Positions 44,264 through 58,315 of a stretch of 64,000 bases of DNA are shown one piece after another; the first letter of the stretch is position 1, and the number at the start of each line of letters is the position of its first letter. The DNA is taken from positions 2,108,001-2,172,000 of the forward strand of contig NZ_CP014671.1 of the NCBI RefSeq assembly GCF_001697225.1, in the 5' to 3' direction. The notes under the pieces were generated by a model. That model was not told where the DNA came from. It did not search any database and worked only from the letters and a program-made list of their open reading frames with translations. The stretch is from Immundisolibacter cernigliae. Its GTDB lineage: Bacteria > Pseudomonadota > Gammaproteobacteria > Immundisolibacterales > Immundisolibacteraceae. Both the position numbers and the translations under genes were made by a program.

Positions 44264-44272
44264 TGCCATAAT
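44264..44272 (+). promoter_or_regulatory. Extended -10 for PQQ dehydrogenase
   Basis: TGC directly precedes CATAAT (44267-44272), five of six matches to the -10 box with the TGn extension; no -35 is evident. The first in-frame ATG of the gene (44271) lies inside this element, which supports the later ATG at 44325 as the true start. Confidence 0.5.
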
Positions 44273-44324
44273 GCCGCGCGCCGGCCTGAACGGTCGTTCG
44301 AAACGGATTTCGGAGGGGAAACAG

Positions 44325-46505
44325 ATGGGTTTCAGAAGCTCACGTTGGCTGGCGGCAATTGCCGCCGCATTCCTGTGCAGCGGCGTCGCGCAGGCCGCCC
44401 CCGGCGCCATCGACGGCGCGCGCATCATCGGCGCGGACAGCGAGCCCGGTAACTGGCTGGCACACGGCCGCACCTACGGCGAGCAGCGTTTCAGCCCGCT
44501 GGATGCCATCAATGCCGACAACGTGGGCCAGCTCGGCCTGGCCTGGTTTGCGGATCTGGGCACGCGGCGCGGGCTCGAGGCGACGCCCATCGTGGTCGAC
44601 GGCGTCATCTACACCACCGGCGACTGGAGCCGCGTGTACGCCATCGACGCCGCCACCGGCAAGCAGATCTGGTCCTACGACCCCAAGGTGCCGCGCGAAT
44701 GGGGCGTGAACGCCTGCTGCGATGTGGTGAACCGCGGCGTGGCGGTGTGGAAGGGCCGCGTCTACGTGGGCACCCTCGACGGCCGGCTGATTGCGCTGGA
44801 CGCCGCCAGCGGCGCGCTGGTGTGGGAGACGCTCACCATCGACCCCGGCAAGCCGTACTCGATCACCGGCGCGCCGCGCATCGTCAAGGACAAGGTCGTC
44901 ATCGGCAACGGCGGCGCCGAGTACGGCGTGCGCGGCTACGTGTCCGCCTACGACGCGGCCACCGGCAAGATGGTGTGGCGCTTCTGGACCGTGCCGGGCG
45001 ACCCGGCCAGGGGCTTCGAGACGCCCGACGTCGAGATGGCCGCCAAAACCTGGAATCCGGCCGGCGAGTGGTGGAACAAGGGCGGCGGCGGCGGCACCGT
45101 GTGGGATTCGATGGCCTACGACCCGCAGCTCAACCTGCTCTACGTGGGTGTCGGCAACGGCGCGCCGTGGAACCGTTGGGAGCGCAGCAAGGGCGAGGGC
45201 GACAACCTGTTCCTGTCGTCCATCGTGGCGCTCGATCCGGACACCGGCCGGCATGTGTGGCACTACCAGACCACGCCCAGCGAAACCTGGGACTACACCG
45301 CCACGCAGCACATGATCCTGGCCGACATCGAAATCGGCGGGCAGCCGCGCAAGGTCATCATGCAGGCGCCCAAGAACGGCTTTTTCTACGTGCTGGACCG
45401 GGCCACCGGGCAGTTCATCTCGGCCGAAAACTACGTCCAGGTGACCTGGGCGACGCACATCGACCCCACCACCGGCCGGCCGGTGGAAACCGACCCGGTG
45501 CAATACCGGGACGAGAAGAAACTCACCTTCCCAGCGCCCTTCGGCGGCCACAACTGGCAGCCGATGTCCTACAGCCCACGCACCGGGCTGGTGTACATCC
45601 CGGCCATGGATCTGCCGTTCACGTTTGCCCAGGAAAAGGACTTCAAATACGGCCGCCATCCCTGGAACATGGCGGTCGACATGGCCGCCGCCATGCCGTC
45701 CGCCGACCAGGACCCGGCGCTGACGCGCAAGGTGCTGCGCGCCATCGCCAAGGGCCACATCGCCGCCTGGGATCCGGTGGCGCAGAAGGAAGTCTGGCGC
45801 GTGCAGCACGACGGCCCGTGGAACGGCGGCATGCTCAGCACCGCCGGCAACCTGCTGCTGCAGGGCAACGCCAGGGGCGAGCTGGTGGCCTACCGCGCCG
45901 ATACCGGTGAGCGCCTGTGGAGCGCCCCGACGCAGTCCGGCATCGTGGCGCCGCCGGTCAGCTATGCCGTGAATGGCGAGCAGTACATCGCCGTCATGGT
46001 CGGCTGGGGCGGGGCGCTCGGCCTGGCCGGCGGCATTGCGCCACGGGAAGGCGACAAGGTCGGCGGGCGCCTGCTCGCTTTCAAGCTAGGCGGCCAGGCC
46101 AGCCTGCCACCGGCCCCACTGCCGCCGGCCCTGCCGCAACCACCGCCGCAGACGGCATCCGCCGACACCGTCGCCAAGGGCCACGCGCTCTATCACGCCT
46201 ACTGTTCGGTGTGTCATGGCCTGAACGCCGAATCGCCGACGCTGGCCGACCTGCGCTATATGCAGCCGGCCACGCACGAGCTGTTCGACAAGATCGTGCT
46301 CGATGGCCTGTACCAGGGCCTGGGCATGGTCGGCTGGTCGAAGTACCTGAGCGCCGACGACGCGCACGCCATCCACGCCTACGTGGTCGAGCGTGCGCAC
46401 CAGACGCAACGCGAGCAGGCCGGCGGCTGGTGGCTGTCCGTCAAGGACTGGGCCTACGGCGTGCTGGCCAAGCTGGTGGCCTGGTTCATTCAGCTGACCG
46501 CCTGA
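44325..46505 (+). CDS. PQQ-dependent quinohemoprotein alcohol dehydrogenase
   Basis: Periplasmic alcohol dehydrogenase using pyrroloquinoline quinone and haem c. The 726-residue precursor has a 24-residue signal peptide. An eight-bladed propeller follows, with the adjacent-cysteine disulfide NACCDVV near the active site and the catalytic Asp in WDYTATQ. Thr stands two residues after that Asp, where lanthanide-dependent enzymes have Asp, so calcium use is likely. A cytochrome c domain carries CSVCH at residues 627-631 and Met in GMVGW. The last 25 residues are Trp-rich and hydrophobic. GGAGGGGA ribosome site. Confidence 0.93.
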   Translation: MGFRSSRWLAAIAAAFLCSGVAQAAPGAIDGARIIGADSEPGNWLAHGRTYGEQRFSPLDAINADNVGQLGLAWFADLGTRRGLEATPIVVDGVIYTTGDWSRVYAIDAATGKQIWSYDPKVPREWGVNACCDVVNRGVAVWKGRVYVGTLDGRLIALDAASGALVWETLTIDPGKPYSITGAPRIVKDKVVIGNGGAEYGVRGYVSAYDAATGKMVWRFWTVPGDPARGFETPDVEMAAKTWNPAGEWWNKGGGGGTVWDSMAYDPQLNLLYVGVGNGAPWNRWERSKGEGDNLFLSSIVALDPDTGRHVWHYQTTPSETWDYTATQHMILADIEIGGQPRKVIMQAPKNGFFYVLDRATGQFISAENYVQVTWATHIDPTTGRPVETDPVQYRDEKKLTFPAPFGGHNWQPMSYSPRTGLVYIPAMDLPFTFAQEKDFKYGRHPWNMAVDMAAAMPSADQDPALTRKVLRAIAKGHIAAWDPVAQKEVWRVQHDGPWNGGMLSTAGNLLLQGNARGELVAYRADTGERLWSAPTQSGIVAPPVSYAVNGEQYIAVMVGWGGALGLAGGIAPREGDKVGGRLLAFKLGGQASLPPAPLPPALPQPPPQTASADTVAKGHALYHAYCSVCHGLNAESPTLADLRYMQPATHELFDKIVLDGLYQGLGMVGWSKYLSADDAHAIHAYVVERAHQTQREQAGGWWLSVKDWAYGVLAKLVAWFIQLTA

Positions 46506-46511
46506 GAGCTT

Positions 46512-48629
46512 GTGACATTCAAGCTCGCGGGAACTCGCAGCGGCGTGCGTTTTCGCCCCGGCGGCGCGTCTGTCGCCGCGCTGCTGCTGGCGGGTATGGC
46601 CGTCGTTCCCGGTGCCAGCCGGGCGGACGATGGGGCTGCCCCACCGCTGGTGGTGACCATCGAGGCGCCGCGCGACATCGCCGCCTGGACCGCCGCCGGC
46701 AGCGGCAGCCGCATCGACGCCGCCGACATCGCCCGCACGCGCCCGGCGCACGCCAGCGAGCTGTTCGCCCGCGTGCCGGGCGTGTGGATCAGCCGCGGCG
46801 ACGGCCAGGAGAGCCTGATCGCCATCCGCTCGCCGGTGCTCACCGGCCCCGGCGCCTGCGGCGCGTTCCAGATTCTGGAAGACGGCATCCCCATCCGCCC
46901 GGCCGGCTTCTGCAACGTCAACGAACTGTTCGAGGTCGATTTCGCCCAGGCCGCCGCCGTCGAGGTGGCGCGCGGTCCGGCCAGCAGCCAGTACGGCGCC
47001 AACGCGCTGCATGGCGCCATCAACGTGGTCTCGCACCGGCCCGGGCCGCAGCCGTGGACGCTCGGCCTGGAAGCCGGGCCGGACGACAGCTTCACCGGCC
47101 GCCTGTCGAGCGGATCGGCGCGCTGGCGGCTCGACGTCCAGGGCGCCGACACCAACGGCTTTCGCGACGCCACGCCGACCGGCGAGCAGAAGCTCGGCCT
47201 CGGCCACGCGACCACGCTTGGGCGCTGGCAGGTGAGCAGCCGCCTTGCCGCCAGCAACCTCAACCAGGAGACGGCCGGCTTCATTTTTGGCAAGGACGCC
47301 TATCGCAAGGCCGGTCTGCGGCGCGACAACCTGAATCCGGAGGCCTACCGCGACGCCTCATCGGCGCGCCTGCACAGCGCCTGGCGCACCGTGCTCGGCG
47401 AAAACACCGCGCTGTCGATCACGCCCTACGCGCGCTGGTCGCAGATGGATTTTCTGCAGCACTTCCTGCCCGGCCAGCCCACCGAGACCAACGGCCAACG
47501 CAGCGCCGGTGTGCTGGTGGACCTGCGAAAGCCGCTGCCGGGCGGTATCGACTGGCAGGCCGGACTGGCCGGCGAGTACGCGCGCGGGTTTCTGAGCGAG
47601 GTCCAGGCCCGGCCGCTTAGCACCGGTTCGGCCTTCCAGCAGGCCACCCGACCGGCCGGCCTGCATTACGACTTTGAGGTCGCCTCGCGCATGGCCGCGC
47701 TGTGGCAGTCGCTGGACCTGCCGCTGGACGCCGCCGGCGACTGGCATCTGCTGGCGAGCCTGCGCGGCGAGTACCTGAGCTATGACTACGACAACCGGGC
47801 ACTGGACGGCAACACGCGCGACGACGGCACGCCCTGCGGCTTTGGCGGCTGCCTGTACAACCGGCCGGCGGACCGCAGCGACCACTTCGCCAATCTGGCC
47901 GGTCGACTCGGCCTGCGCTACGGCGACCCCTACAGCGGCCAGTGGCATGGCGCCTGGTCGAACGGCTTTCGCCCGCCGCAGGTCACCGAGCTGTACCGCC
48001 TGCAGCGTGGCCAGACCACGGCGGACCTGGACTCCGAGCGCCTGCAGGGCGTCGAACTCGGCTACCAGCGCGCCTGGGCCGATGTCCGCATCAGCCTGAC
48101 CGCATTTGGCATGCGCAAGACGCATTTCATCTTCACCGACGCCGATGGCTTGAACGTCAGCGATGGCCGCACCAAGCACTTTGGCCTGGAAACCGAGGCC
48201 ACCTGGCGGCCCGCGCCGCGCCACGAGCTGCATCTTTCAGCCAGCCTGGCGCGCCATCGTTATGCCTTCGACCGCGCCGCCAGCGGCGGTGAGATCATCA
48301 AAAGCGGCAACGAGATCGATACCGCCCCGCCGTTCATGGGCAGTCTGCGCTGGCTCTATCAGCCGCGCCGGGACTTCAGCCTGGAACTGGAAGGCGTCCG
48401 CATGGGGCCGTATTACCTGGATGCGGCCAACACCGCCCGCTATGCCGGTCACACGCTGGCGAACCTGCGCGCCGACTGGGTCACGAGCGCCAAGACAACC
48501 CTGTTCGCCCGCATCACCAACCTGACCGACAGCGACTACGCCGAGCGCGCCGATCTGGCCTTCGGCAGTTATCGCTATTTCCCGGGCCTGCCGCGGCGAT
48601 TGTTCGTGGGCATCGAGTGGCGGCCATAG
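46512..48629 (+). CDS. TonB-dependent outer-membrane receptor
   Basis: Outer-membrane active-uptake receptor of 705 residues starting at GTG, 6 bases after the PQQ dehydrogenase. A signal peptide (about 1-38) precedes the plug domain (SELFARVPGVWISRGDGQES, RSPVLTGPGACGAF, ARGPASSQYGANALHGAINVVS) and a beta-barrel ending with a C-terminal Trp-Arg-Pro. A clear TonB box was not identified. Position suggests uptake of PQQ, a metal or substrate for the dehydrogenase; direct evidence is lacking. Two Cys pairs occur in the plug and a loop (GFGGC). Confidence 0.9.
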   Translation: MTFKLAGTRSGVRFRPGGASVAALLLAGMAVVPGASRADDGAAPPLVVTIEAPRDIAAWTAAGSGSRIDAADIARTRPAHASELFARVPGVWISRGDGQESLIAIRSPVLTGPGACGAFQILEDGIPIRPAGFCNVNELFEVDFAQAAAVEVARGPASSQYGANALHGAINVVSHRPGPQPWTLGLEAGPDDSFTGRLSSGSARWRLDVQGADTNGFRDATPTGEQKLGLGHATTLGRWQVSSRLAASNLNQETAGFIFGKDAYRKAGLRRDNLNPEAYRDASSARLHSAWRTVLGENTALSITPYARWSQMDFLQHFLPGQPTETNGQRSAGVLVDLRKPLPGGIDWQAGLAGEYARGFLSEVQARPLSTGSAFQQATRPAGLHYDFEVASRMAALWQSLDLPLDAAGDWHLLASLRGEYLSYDYDNRALDGNTRDDGTPCGFGGCLYNRPADRSDHFANLAGRLGLRYGDPYSGQWHGAWSNGFRPPQVTELYRLQRGQTTADLDSERLQGVELGYQRAWADVRISLTAFGMRKTHFIFTDADGLNVSDGRTKHFGLETEATWRPAPRHELHLSASLARHRYAFDRAASGGEIIKSGNEIDTAPPFMGSLRWLYQPRRDFSLELEGVRMGPYYLDAANTARYAGHTLANLRADWVTSAKTTLFARITNLTDSDYAERADLAFGSYRYFPGLPRRLFVGIEWRP

Positions 48630-48659: not shown

Positions 48660-49516
48660 TCAGCCGCCCCGCGGCAGGGTGGCGAAGCGGTTCATCTTGG
48701 CGGCCACGGCCTCGGCCAGCGCCGGATCGGGCTGACCCACGCCGCCGCCGGCCGTCCAGCCGCCGTCCACCGGCAGGTTGATGCCGGTCACGAAGCTGGC
48801 CTCGTCCGAGCACAGGTACAGCGCCGCCAGGGCGATATCCATCGGCTGGCCGACCCGGCGGATGAGTGCACTTTTCTCGACCGCTTCGACGAAACCGTCG
48901 CCCAGCAGCGGCCGCGTGGCCGGCGTGTCGATCAGCCCCGGCGACACGGTGTTGACACGAATGTTCAGCGGCGACAGCTCCACCGCCAGGTGCTCGGTCA
49001 TGCGGATCACCGCGGCCTTGGACACGTTATGCACGAAATTGCCCGGCGCGTTGCCCGGCATGGCCGTCGACAGCATGCCGGCGACCGAGCCGGTGTTCAG
49101 GATCACCCCGCCGCCGCGGCGCTTGAACACCGGCAGCGCGTGCTTGACGGCCAGAAAGATCAGCGTCACCTCGTTGGCCAGGTTCCAGTCCCAGTCCTCG
49201 CGGCTGAGCGATTCCACCGTGCCGCCGCGCACGCCGGACGCATTGTTGTAGAGGATGTCGAAGTCGCCGAATTCGGCCACGGCAAACTCCATCCACGCCT
49301 TGACCTGCCCTCGTCGGACAGGTTCAGCGGCTGCATGGACACCATCTGTCCGCCGGCACGACGCACCCTTTCCACGGTTTCCTGCGCCAGCTCGGCTTTC
49401 AGGTCGCAGCCGACCACCCGTGCTCCCTCGGCCGCAAACAGTTGTGCTGCGGCGCGGCCCTGGCCGTCCGCGGTACCGGTGATCAGGGCCACCTTGCCCG
49501 CCAGTCTGCCCGTCAT
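48660..49516 (-). pseudogene. Frameshifted short-chain dehydrogenase
   Basis: SDR whose reading frame is broken. An N-terminal part from ATG 49516 (MTGRLAGKVALITGTADGQG, then GARVVGCDL) runs to SDEG near 49313, where one base is missing and the rest continues in another frame (QVKAWMEFAVAEF, NNAS, to the C-terminus at 48660). The Ser of the catalytic triad is in LNTGSVAG, but the Tyr of YxxxK is His (HNVSK), a change of one base. A GGAGGGG ribosome site precedes the ATG. Either an inactivated gene or a sequencing error; the missing Tyr favours decay. Confidence 0.8.
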
Positions 49517-49546
49517 GGCACCCCCTCCGTTGCTGGTTCTCACCAC

Positions 49547-49582
49547 AAAAAAAGGCCCCGCCGGAACGCCCGACGGGGCCTT
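49547..49582 (-). terminator. Terminator of the ferritin-like gene
   Basis: Minus strand: stem arms AAGGCCCCG and CGGGGCCTT (plus 49574-49582 and 49552-49560) with a 13-base, partly paired loop, followed by a run of seven T. It lies 36 bases after the stop of the ferritin-like gene and before the SDR pseudogene. Confidence 0.85.
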
Positions 49583-49618: not shown

Positions 49619-50449
49619 TTACGCCGCCTGCGAGTAGACGCGAATCGGCTCGATGGCGTCGTTCATCAGTTCCTGACGGATGGCTTCGATCTCGTCGTCG
49701 CTCATCGGGTACAGGAACTGCTCGTTGCGCTGCAGCACTTCCAGATAGCGCATGTGCCGCAGCTCGCGGAACATGTCCTTCAGGTCCACCCCGAAGTCCG
49801 GTGAGTATTCCGCACAGATTTCCGTCAGCTCCTGCGGGCCGTGGCGCAGCTCGTCGATGGCGATGCCCTTTTGCACCTTGGCCGCCTCGCGGAAGAAATC
49901 GTCCACCGGCGGCAGCTGGCTCATCGCCCAGTGCCAGCCGCCCGCGGCGCCCTCGCCGGTGGCGCTGAACACGCGCGCCACCCACGGGTGCTTGCCCTTG
50001 GCGTAGGCGCCCATGTTGGCGATGTAGTTGAAGTTGGCCGGCCAGCGGTCCCGTTGCGCCAGCATCGGGCCGTCGGCCTCGATGCCGTTGGGGCCCAGAT
50101 TGGCCAGCACGTAGCTGTAGATATGGTCGACCGGGATCGGCGCGTCCTTGCCGATGGTGCGGTTCAGCAGGTTGTAGTAGCCCTGGTAGTGGGCGACCTC
50201 TTCCTTGATGGTCTGGAATTTCTCGTCCATGTCGCGACCGTCCAGGCCGGCGCGGATGGCGGCCTTGCCAAGGTCGGCATGCAGCAGGATGGCGCCAAAT
50301 TCCTTGCCCATCTGGATGCACAGCCAGTTCATGTCGCGCTCGGGCGTTCGGCGGGCGGCATAGGCGTCGACCACTTTCTTCACGGCGGCGGTGCCCTGCT
50401 CCAGGATGCGGATGATTTCCTGCTCGATCTGCTGTTTGGTGTAGCTCAT
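49619..50449 (-). CDS. Ferritin-like, probable diiron protein
   Basis: A 276-residue, mostly helical soluble protein with two ExxH motifs, Glu84-His87 in KEEVAHYQGYY and Glu200-His203 in DELRHGPQE, plus Glu50 in KEFGAILL, all hallmarks of a ferritin-like diiron four-helix bundle. A fourth carboxylate helix is not clear. No known family was recognised; diiron oxygenases, desaturases and rubrerythrins share the pattern. It diverges from the Rieske oxygenase gene with a 221-base spacer. AAGGGG ribosome site before the ATG. Function unknown. Confidence 0.75.
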   Translation of the reverse strand: MSYTKQQIEQEIIRILEQGTAAVKKVVDAYAARRTPERDMNWLCIQMGKEFGAILLHADLGKAAIRAGLDGRDMDEKFQTIKEEVAHYQGYYNLLNRTIGKDAPIPVDHIYSYVLANLGPNGIEADGPMLAQRDRWPANFNYIANMGAYAKGKHPWVARVFSATGEGAAGGWHWAMSQLPPVDDFFREAAKVQKGIAIDELRHGPQELTEICAEYSPDFGVDLKDMFRELRHMRYLEVLQRNEQFLYPMSDDEIEAIRQELMNDAIEPIRVYSQAA

Positions 50450-50532
50450 GGTCGTTTCCCCTTGACTCGTGGACGAGGTTGCCGGCCGCCCGGCGCGTTG
50501 AGTGGGCCATGCTGCCCTTGGCCGGGCACCAC

Positions 50533-50620
50533 GTCAACGGGCGTTCGGTTGGAGCCGGCGCCTTGCATGTTGACGGCCGTCAAGGCGCGCCGGTCCCCGC
50601 TGTCCAGAATGCCGGTCAAC
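50533..50620. promoter_or_regulatory. Operator-like palindrome in divergent spacer
   Basis: TTGACGGCCGTCAA at 50570-50583 is a perfect 14-base palindrome. Further GTCAAC half-sites lie at 50533-50538 and 50615-50620. The cluster sits between the ferritin-like and Rieske oxygenase genes, where a LysR-, AraC- or GntR-type regulator could act on both. No -10/-35 pair was convincing. Confidence 0.4.
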
Positions 50621-50670
50621 GAGCCTGCAAGGCTCCGGGCAAACAGCTTTCGCACGCGAGGAGATCGCCA

Positions 50671-52014
50671 ATGGACGCACGCAGCAGCGCCGGCACCGTG
50701 AATCTGGCTGGGTATCTGGACGACCGGGTCGAGGCCGGCGTGGTGCGGGTGGACCGCTCCATCTTCACCGACCCGGAAATCTTCGAGCTCGAAATGGAGC
50801 GCATCTGGGAAGGCAACTGGATTTATCTGGCCCACGAGAGCCAGATCCCGAACCCGAACGACTTCATGACCCTGTTCATGGGTCGCCAGCCGGTGATCCT
50901 GGTGCGCAGCCCGGAAGGCGAGGTCAACGCCTTCATCAATGCCTGCGGACACCGCGGCACCACGCTGGTGCGCGAAGTGCGCGGCAACCGGGCCGACTAC
51001 AGCTGCCCCTTCCACGGCTGGGTGTTCGACACCCGCGGCGATGCCAAGGTGGTGTTCAAGGAAGACGGCGCCGGCTACCCGGACTGTTTCGACAAGAAGA
51101 ACTACGGCCTGACGAAAGTGCCGCAGGTCAAGAGCTACCGCGGCTTCATCTTCGGCAGCCTGAACGCCGACGTGCTGCCACTGGAACAGCACCTGGGACC
51201 GGCCACGGCCTGCATCGACCTGCTGGCCGACCAGAGCCCGCAAGGCCTCGAGATCCTGAAGGGCTCGTCCACCTACACCTTCAGGGGCAACTGGAAGATC
51301 CAGGCCGAGAACGGCGTCGACGGCTACCACCTGTACGCCACGCACGGCAATTACGTGATGACCACCGAGCACCGGCGCAAGCTGCGTGGCGACGCCGACC
51401 CGGTCAAGGCCATGCAGGTCGGCGGCATCGACAAGAAAAAGGGCGGCTTCTTCGACCTGGGCCACGGCCACGTCATGCTGTGGGGCGATTTCCCGAACCC
51501 CACCGACCGGCCCAACTTCAGCCAGCTGGCAGCGTACACCGAAAAATTCGGCGCCCAGAAGGCGCACTGGATGGTGGCGCGCCTGCGCAACCTGCTGCTG
51601 TATCCGAACGTGTTCGTGATGGATCAGACCTCGACGCAGATTCGCGTGTTCCGGCCCATTTCGGTCGACGAGACCGAGGTCACCATCTACGGCATCGCGC
51701 CGCGGGGCGAGTCGGCCAAGGACCGCAGCCACCGCATCCGCCAGTGGGAGGACTTCTTCAACGCCTCGGGCATGGCCACGCCGGACGACATCATGGAATT
51801 CACGCAAAGCCAGATCGCCTACAAGGCCAAGGCGGCGCGTTGGAACGACGTCTCGCGCGGCCTCAAGCACGTGCACTTCAACGAACCGAACGAGGAAGCC
51901 GCCTCGCTGGGCATCCAGGTGCAGTCCTTCGGCACCAGGCTGGAGGACGAGGGAATCATGGCCGCCCAGCACCGCTGGTGGCTGGAAACCCTGACCCACG
52001 GCCCGCAAGGCTGA
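50671..52014 (+). CDS. Aromatic-ring-hydroxylating dioxygenase, alpha subunit (BenA-like)
   Basis: Catalytic subunit of a Rieske non-haem iron oxygenase, 447 residues, similar in layout to benzoate/toluate dioxygenase. The Rieske site is Cys92-Gly-His94 and Cys112-x2-His115 (CPFHGW). The mononuclear iron site is His220 and His225 in DGYHLYATH, with bridging Asp217 and a probable Asp318 ligand in PNVFVMDQT. GAGGAG ribosome site before the ATG at 50671; an upstream extension is rejected as non-homologous. The beta subunit follows after 26 bases. Substrate is not predicted. Confidence 0.92.
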   Translation: MDARSSAGTVNLAGYLDDRVEAGVVRVDRSIFTDPEIFELEMERIWEGNWIYLAHESQIPNPNDFMTLFMGRQPVILVRSPEGEVNAFINACGHRGTTLVREVRGNRADYSCPFHGWVFDTRGDAKVVFKEDGAGYPDCFDKKNYGLTKVPQVKSYRGFIFGSLNADVLPLEQHLGPATACIDLLADQSPQGLEILKGSSTYTFRGNWKIQAENGVDGYHLYATHGNYVMTTEHRRKLRGDADPVKAMQVGGIDKKKGGFFDLGHGHVMLWGDFPNPTDRPNFSQLAAYTEKFGAQKAHWMVARLRNLLLYPNVFVMDQTSTQIRVFRPISVDETEVTIYGIAPRGESAKDRSHRIRQWEDFFNASGMATPDDIMEFTQSQIAYKAKAARWNDVSRGLKHVHFNEPNEEAASLGIQVQSFGTRLEDEGIMAAQHRWWLETLTHGPQG

Positions 52015-52040
52015 CCGCCGCCACACGCCAGGACACGATC

Positions 52041-52532
52041 ATGAAGCAAGACATCACGCAGGCCTGCGCCGACCTGCTCTACACCGAGGCGCGGCGCCTC
52101 GACCAGCGCGACTGGGACGGCTGGCTGGACCTGTACCTGCCCGAAGCGAGCTTCTGGATCCCGATGTGGGACACCGAATACGAGTTGACCACCGACCCGC
52201 AAAGCCAGCTGTCGCTGATGTGGTACGGCGACCGCACGGGGCTGGAAGACCGCGTGTTTCGCATCCGCACCGGCATGTCATCGGCCTCGGTGCCGCTGCC
52301 GCGCACGGTGCACCAGATCAGCAACATCCTGACCGAGCCGCAAGGCGACGGCGACATCATGGTCTATTCCAACTGCCAGACCATGAGCTACCGGCACAAG
52401 ACCATCGACAACTTCTACTGCCACTACGAGCACCGGCTGCGGCCGGTGGCCGGCACGCTCAAGATCATCGCCAAGAAGATCATCGTCGCCAACGACCTGA
52501 TCCGCGACGTGATGGATTTCTACCGGGTCTGA
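52041..52532 (+). CDS. Aromatic-ring-hydroxylating dioxygenase, beta subunit
   Basis: Small structural subunit, 163 residues, of the alpha3beta3 oxygenase with the SnoaL-like fold: LYTEARRLDQRDWDGWLDLYL at the N-terminus and DRVFRIRTGMSSASVPLPRT in the middle. Typical features of BenB/XylY-like subunits are visible, including the PLPRTVHQISN segment. No reductase gene follows; the nearest possible electron carrier is the Rieske ferredoxin 5.4 kb away. Confidence 0.9.
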   Translation: MKQDITQACADLLYTEARRLDQRDWDGWLDLYLPEASFWIPMWDTEYELTTDPQSQLSLMWYGDRTGLEDRVFRIRTGMSSASVPLPRTVHQISNILTEPQGDGDIMVYSNCQTMSYRHKTIDNFYCHYEHRLRPVAGTLKIIAKKIIVANDLIRDVMDFYRV

Positions 52533-57967: not shown

Positions 57968-58315
57968 TCAAACGTCCACCAGCACCGCGTCGCCTTCCAC
58001 CTTGGTGGCGTAGGTCTTGATCGGCTTCTTGGGCCGGAAGATGTTCATCAGCTGCACGCCGGGCGGGAAGCAGGCCCACTTCACGGCCTCGCCGGTCTTG
58101 ATGTCGAACTCGGCCCGGTGCAGTGGGCACTGCACGCGCTGGCCGTCGAGAATCTTGCCGCGGGCCAGCGGCCCGAACACATGCGAACAGCTCGCCGCGG
58201 TGGCCCGAAAGCCGTCGGCGAGGTTATAGACGACGACCGCTTCGCCGTTGACCTTGAAACGGGCCATGCCGCCGGCCGGCACGTCGTTCACTGAACAGGC
58301 GCGTGTGTAAGCCAT
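57968..58315 (-). CDS. Rieske [2Fe-2S] ferredoxin
   Basis: Electron carrier, 115 residues. The Rieske cluster ligands are Cys-x-His in ASCSHVFGPLARG and Cys-x2-His in VQCPLHRAEF, like BphF/NdoA-type ferredoxins that feed ring-hydroxylating oxygenases. The C-terminal FRPKKPIKTYATKVEGDAV is typical. Candidate partner for the Rieske oxygenase at 50671-52532, which has no reductase nearby, although other partners are possible. Followed upstream by the SDR gene on the same strand (51-base gap). Confidence 0.9.
   Translation of the reverse strand: MAYTRACSVNDVPAGGMARFKVNGEAVVVYNLADGFRATAASCSHVFGPLARGKILDGQRVQCPLHRAEFDIKTGEAVKWACFPPGVQLMNIFRPKKPIKTYATKVEGDAVLVDV

Follow-up and report, generated by a model that had tools for sequence, protein, structure and literature searches.

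Aerobic degradation of aromatic compounds is thought to rest on few oxygenase classes. Among the closest described enzymes, ferritin-like oxygenases take their metal ligands from four core helices, 4-carboxylate/2-His sets being among those used, and the heme-oxygenase-like dimetal oxidases (HDOs) mostly have 3-His/3-carboxylate sets (review, PMC13108848). N-oxygenases of the AurF/CmlI type are stand-alone ferritin-like diiron enzymes (PMC13108848 and general knowledge). Here we describe a gene in a 64,000-nucleotide stretch (the window) of Immundisolibacter cernigliae, which is probably an oil-pollutant-degrading bacterium and whose genome (G000) is a single contig of 3,243,537 bp. On balance, we think it probable that the gene represents an uncatalogued family of ferritin-like diiron oxygenases or oxidases, which would perform an oxidation in aromatic pathways and be co-induced with the divergent Rieske genes.

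The open reading frame starts with ATG, and its translation gives the 276-residue protein with two ExxH motifs, Glu84/His87 and Glu200/His203, that a preliminary description had reported. The G+C content at third (0.90) and second (0.38) codon positions supports the frame as a real gene. That description recognized no family for the protein, and our searches agree with it. Pfam and NCBIfam profile searches with 12 homologues found no curated family, only chance matches (E up to 10), and no catalogued family of ferritin-like diiron oxygenases/oxidases (FDOs) rose above its cut-off in the 12 members scanned. Neither single proteins nor profiles found a sequence match in the PDB, and a tblastn search of plasmids with the protein gave no match. 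No description of the gene was found in the literature; the Immundisolibacter papers found were mostly ecology studies. A scan of ~85,000 species genomes, which detects only members with the common short motifs, yielded 11 loci, and ~2,000 genome searches with a profile or protein gave few matches. As judged from these searches, the family is rare and uncatalogued. Its carriers are Immundisolibacteraceae, one Porticoccaceae metagenome-assembled genome (MAG), one Actinomycetota MAG and Acidobacteria MAGs; L040 and L058 are distant members that form a separate second group. A weak match in another genome (G051) looked spurious, its open frames being without the family motifs, and was rejected.

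Alignment of 11 diverse homologues (15–90% identity) left only 17 invariant columns: Y30, R34, D39, W42, Q46, E50, E84, H87, E166, G167, D199, E200, H203, R241, N242, Q244 and F245. Like the gene itself and its neighbourhoods, these residues are read directly from the sequence. All six predicted ligands (E50, E84, H87, E166, E200 and H203) are among them. The conserved carboxylates E50 and E166, overlooked in the preliminary description, complete the predicted diiron set, and the spacing is identical in both half-sites (34+3 residues). The invariant E/ExxH/E/ExxH set thus has the ligand order that a ferritin-like diiron site would show. Two AlphaFold2 models, built from 8 and 12 sequences (pLDDT 87.4 and 91.5), predict an all-helical fold, with E50 in helix 36–66, E84/H87 in helix 71–99, E166 in helix 155–176 and E200/H203 within or at the end of helix 184–201/213. 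The alignment and the models together place the ligand order on four predicted helices, and the helical bundle anticipated for a diiron protein is recovered at the level of prediction. In these respects the family resembles the FDOs (R2lox, cyanobacterial ADO, MiaE, PaaA and hydroxylase alpha subunits). It differs from them in having neither detectable sequence homology to Pfam FDO families nor a significant structural match, and in the additional conservation of Y30, R34, D39, W42, Q46 and a C-terminal RNEQF motif. Compared with AurF/CmlI, the family has no AurF-family Pfam match and a third-histidine ligand is not assured, H173 being near-invariant and replaced by Tyr in L058; similar to AurF/CmlI, the distant members adjoin chorismate-binding or carrier-protein enzymes.

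Features of the diiron locus, in window coordinates
Feature	Coordinates	Strand	Basis
Predicted ferritin-like diiron oxygenase, 276 aa	49619..50449	-	Ligand prediction, conserved motifs
Divergent intergenic control region, 221 bp	50450..50670	.	Arrangement kept in G399 and G400
Perfect 14-bp palindrome TTGACGGCCGTCAA, candidate operator	50570..50583	.	Conserved in three genomes
Rieske oxygenase alpha, BenA-like, 447 aa	50671..52014	+	PF00355, PF00848; TIGR03229 below cut-off
Rieske oxygenase beta, BenB-like, 163 aa	52041..52532	+	PF00866; TIGR03232 below cut-off
Intrinsic terminator, 14-bp stem, 3' of diiron gene	49552..49582	-	Similar stem and T run in G399
Rieske-type ferredoxin	57968..58315	-	PF00355

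The divergence from BenA/BenB-like subunits noted previously was confirmed: both Rieske genes are intact, and their best NCBIfam models are benA and benB. Both scores lie below the equivalog cut-offs for benzoate 1,2-dioxygenase (alpha, 600.5 bits against 780.95 for TIGR03229; beta, 170.7 bits against 225.55 for TIGR03232), so we do not call the pair a benzoate dioxygenase, and its substrate may not be benzoate. The palindrome TTGACGGCCGTCAA is kept in three Immundisolibacter-group genomes, as the sole exact copy in each, although the rest of the control region has drifted much in one of the two relatives. A sigma-70 scan of the region found no site. The common control region containing this palindrome suggests that the diiron and Rieske genes are probably induced together, and the strong terminator behind the diiron gene suggests that its transcript probably carries one gene. 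The Rieske-type ferredoxin further along the window is a possible electron donor for nearby oxygenases; the genes directly adjoining the diiron gene include neither a dedicated reductase nor a ferredoxin.

The neighbourhoods of the homologues vary by branch. In three species, including G399 and G400, the window-type gene is divergent from BenAB-like Rieske genes. In G401 and G402, a different Rieske alpha gene, of the terephthalate/salicylate type, lies 58–71 bp downstream and an HDO gene directly upstream; G403 has the same diiron–HDO pair, on a contig that stops before the other flank. In the paralogue clade, L018 has divergent Rieske alpha/beta genes ~340 bp away. The paralogue in the source genome lies directly behind a NahE-type hydratase-aldolase gene (E 1.7e-116), with Rieske genes ~2 kb away that are absent there in the sister species G399. 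In L025, the diiron gene, ALDH, ADH, Rieske alpha/beta, PdxA and extradiol dioxygenase genes run in one direction, the ADH being named from its start sequence alone, which resembles the ADH of L015, itself confirmed by Pfam, and L031 has an ADH gene upstream of the diiron gene. In the Actinomycetota MAG (L029:1923-8450), the diiron gene, an HDO gene, a molybdenum hydroxylase gene and genes for two multicomponent hydroxylase subunits stand in a row, an array that includes dimetal oxygenases of three kinds. Among the distant members, the gene after L058 encodes an adenylation-carrier-thioesterase protein; L040 precedes a gene for a chorismate-binding enzyme and has MsrA on the opposite flank.

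Within the window-type clade, all gammaproteobacterial branches show the recurrent link to Rieske genes, with a partial failure in one branch. The protein could nevertheless be a real metalloenzyme whose Rieske neighbourhood is incidental, since the genome is crowded with Rieske genes and catabolic genes cluster anyway; we regard this as unlikely, though several observations favour it. In the source genome (3.24 Mb), PF00848 finds 65 matches to Rieske alpha, so that ~4% of genes would adjoin one by chance (with the gene count estimated at ~3,000), and the relatives of this genome have 42–62. The genome of L025 has 14 such matches, the Actinomycetota MAG has 6, and the acidobacterial carriers G489 and G490 have none. 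The Rieske neighbours of different branches are non-orthologous (mostly 25–39% identity, 52% at most), no consistent pairing of the homologues with an orthologous Rieske enzyme was found, and the Rieske neighbour of the paralogue is missing in G399. Against an incidental neighbourhood, immediate Rieske neighbours occur in 3 of ~5 gammaproteobacterial placements, for which a rough binomial under random placement gives ~1e-3, a value that is too strong because catabolic genes cluster. Additionally, the divergent layout and the palindrome are kept across three genomes. Given the non-orthologous types, the Rieske-rich genomes and the Rieske-free carriers, the Rieske enzyme is a frequent neighbour and not an obligate partner. 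The neighbourhood survey thus bore out a recurrent proximity to Rieske genes, and the pathway module suggested in the preliminary description is not supported as a fixed diiron–Rieske unit, as Rieske types vary, most genomes hold 42–65 of them and two carriers hold none. As a separate observation, the Rieske repertoire of the source genome is very large.

HDO (PF14518) genes adjoin the diiron gene in two phyla, in G401, G402 and G403 and in the Actinomycetota MAG. They number 2–5 per genome in the carriers concerned, far fewer than the Rieske genes, which makes this adjacency harder to explain by chance; the pairing was noticed post hoc and the gene totals used for the genomes are rough. Between the two phyla, the HDO sequences share only 27% identity. 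In the loci L016:5662-7208 and L017:1076-2622, two tandem HDO genes, ~73% identical to each other, adjoin the diiron gene.

A protective or iron-handling ferritin-like protein, such as a rubrerythrin-like peroxide scavenger or an iron store, could also shield the Rieske enzyme. The ligand set would suit ferritin-like proteins as a whole and co-regulation with an oxygenase would fit, but the family has no rubrerythrin or ferritin Pfam match and no rubredoxin domain, and in other phyla it is flanked by catabolic or biosynthetic genes and not by stress genes, except for MsrA beside L040. We consider such a function improbable. Of the roles proposed earlier, protection from peroxide therefore found no support, and that of an oxygenase in its own right, predicted to act within aromatic catabolism, fits best and is the most likely.

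No Foldseek match of the models was significant (best E 0.05 and 0.12, TM about 0.45). The weak matches of interest were TenA/heme-oxygenase-like proteins (UndA, AetD) and ferritin-like proteins (R2lox, ADO, MiaE, PaaABC), and ferritin-like diiron enzymes (those four and R2) are included in the weak Foldseek and profile matches taken together. For the pLDDT 91.5 model, non-significant matches to TenA/HDO and ferritin-like folds rank alike. Many low-ranking matches are chance similarities to unrelated helical proteins, such as bacteriorhodopsin, and comparison with viral proteins gave nothing useful. A heme-oxygenase/TenA fold, possibly that of a divergent HDO, is very improbable: the top matches include structures of UndA, AetD and TenA, and the HDOs (UndA, AetD, CADD) share with the family a weak fold similarity and, in two phyla, adjacency, but all these matches are non-significant, profile comparison with the neighbouring HDOs finds nothing (hhalign probability 0.2%), and the protein has two ExxH motifs and neither a PF14518 match nor the H-x3-D-x2-H motif of the neighbouring HDOs. 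The ferritin-like assignment is favoured over HDO because the ligand pattern fits the published description of that class (PMC13108848).

For a ferritin-like diiron oxygenase, the mechanism may be outlined as follows. By analogy with known enzymes, one iron would be coordinated by E50, E84 and H87 and the second by E166, E200 and H203; the glutamates of the two ExxH motifs would bridge the irons. With electrons presumably supplied by a ferredoxin, the diferrous site would react with O2 and oxidize an aromatic-pathway intermediate; the substrate may be an aldehyde, an alcohol or an acid of aromatic type. The gene would be transcribed alone, divergently from the BenAB-like Rieske oxygenase. Hydratase-aldolases make aromatic aldehydes, and the position of the paralogue behind such a gene points to aldehydes as a possible class of substrate. 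Because the diiron gene usually lies near other aromatic-degrading oxygenases, it probably serves an unstudied step in aromatic breakdown. More tentatively, the enzymes may form an undescribed stand-alone ferritin-like diiron family that oxidizes intermediates of polycyclic-aromatic or aromatic-acid catabolism, acting sequentially and co-induced with Rieske and HDO enzymes; we offer this as a possibility. If true, a further diiron family would stand as an unassigned enzyme of hydrocarbon degradation beside Rieske, HDO and multicomponent hydroxylase enzymes and behind a hydratase-aldolase. The ready set of ligand residues and the single-gene transcript would make the family easy to test.

At L061:4735-8225, a distant member lies 5 bp before an adenylation-carrier-thioesterase protein, in what is possibly a natural-product cluster. 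In the window, the diiron gene is neighboured by an SDR gene (48660-49546, minus strand) with a frameshift near 49310 that puts its N- and C-terminal halves in different frames, through sequencing error or decay; the SDR gene is missing from this site in G399 and G400. Further away, a gene on the plus strand (44271-46505) encodes a fusion of a PQQ-dependent alcohol dehydrogenase with a cytochrome c domain and is followed by a TonB receptor gene (46512-48629).
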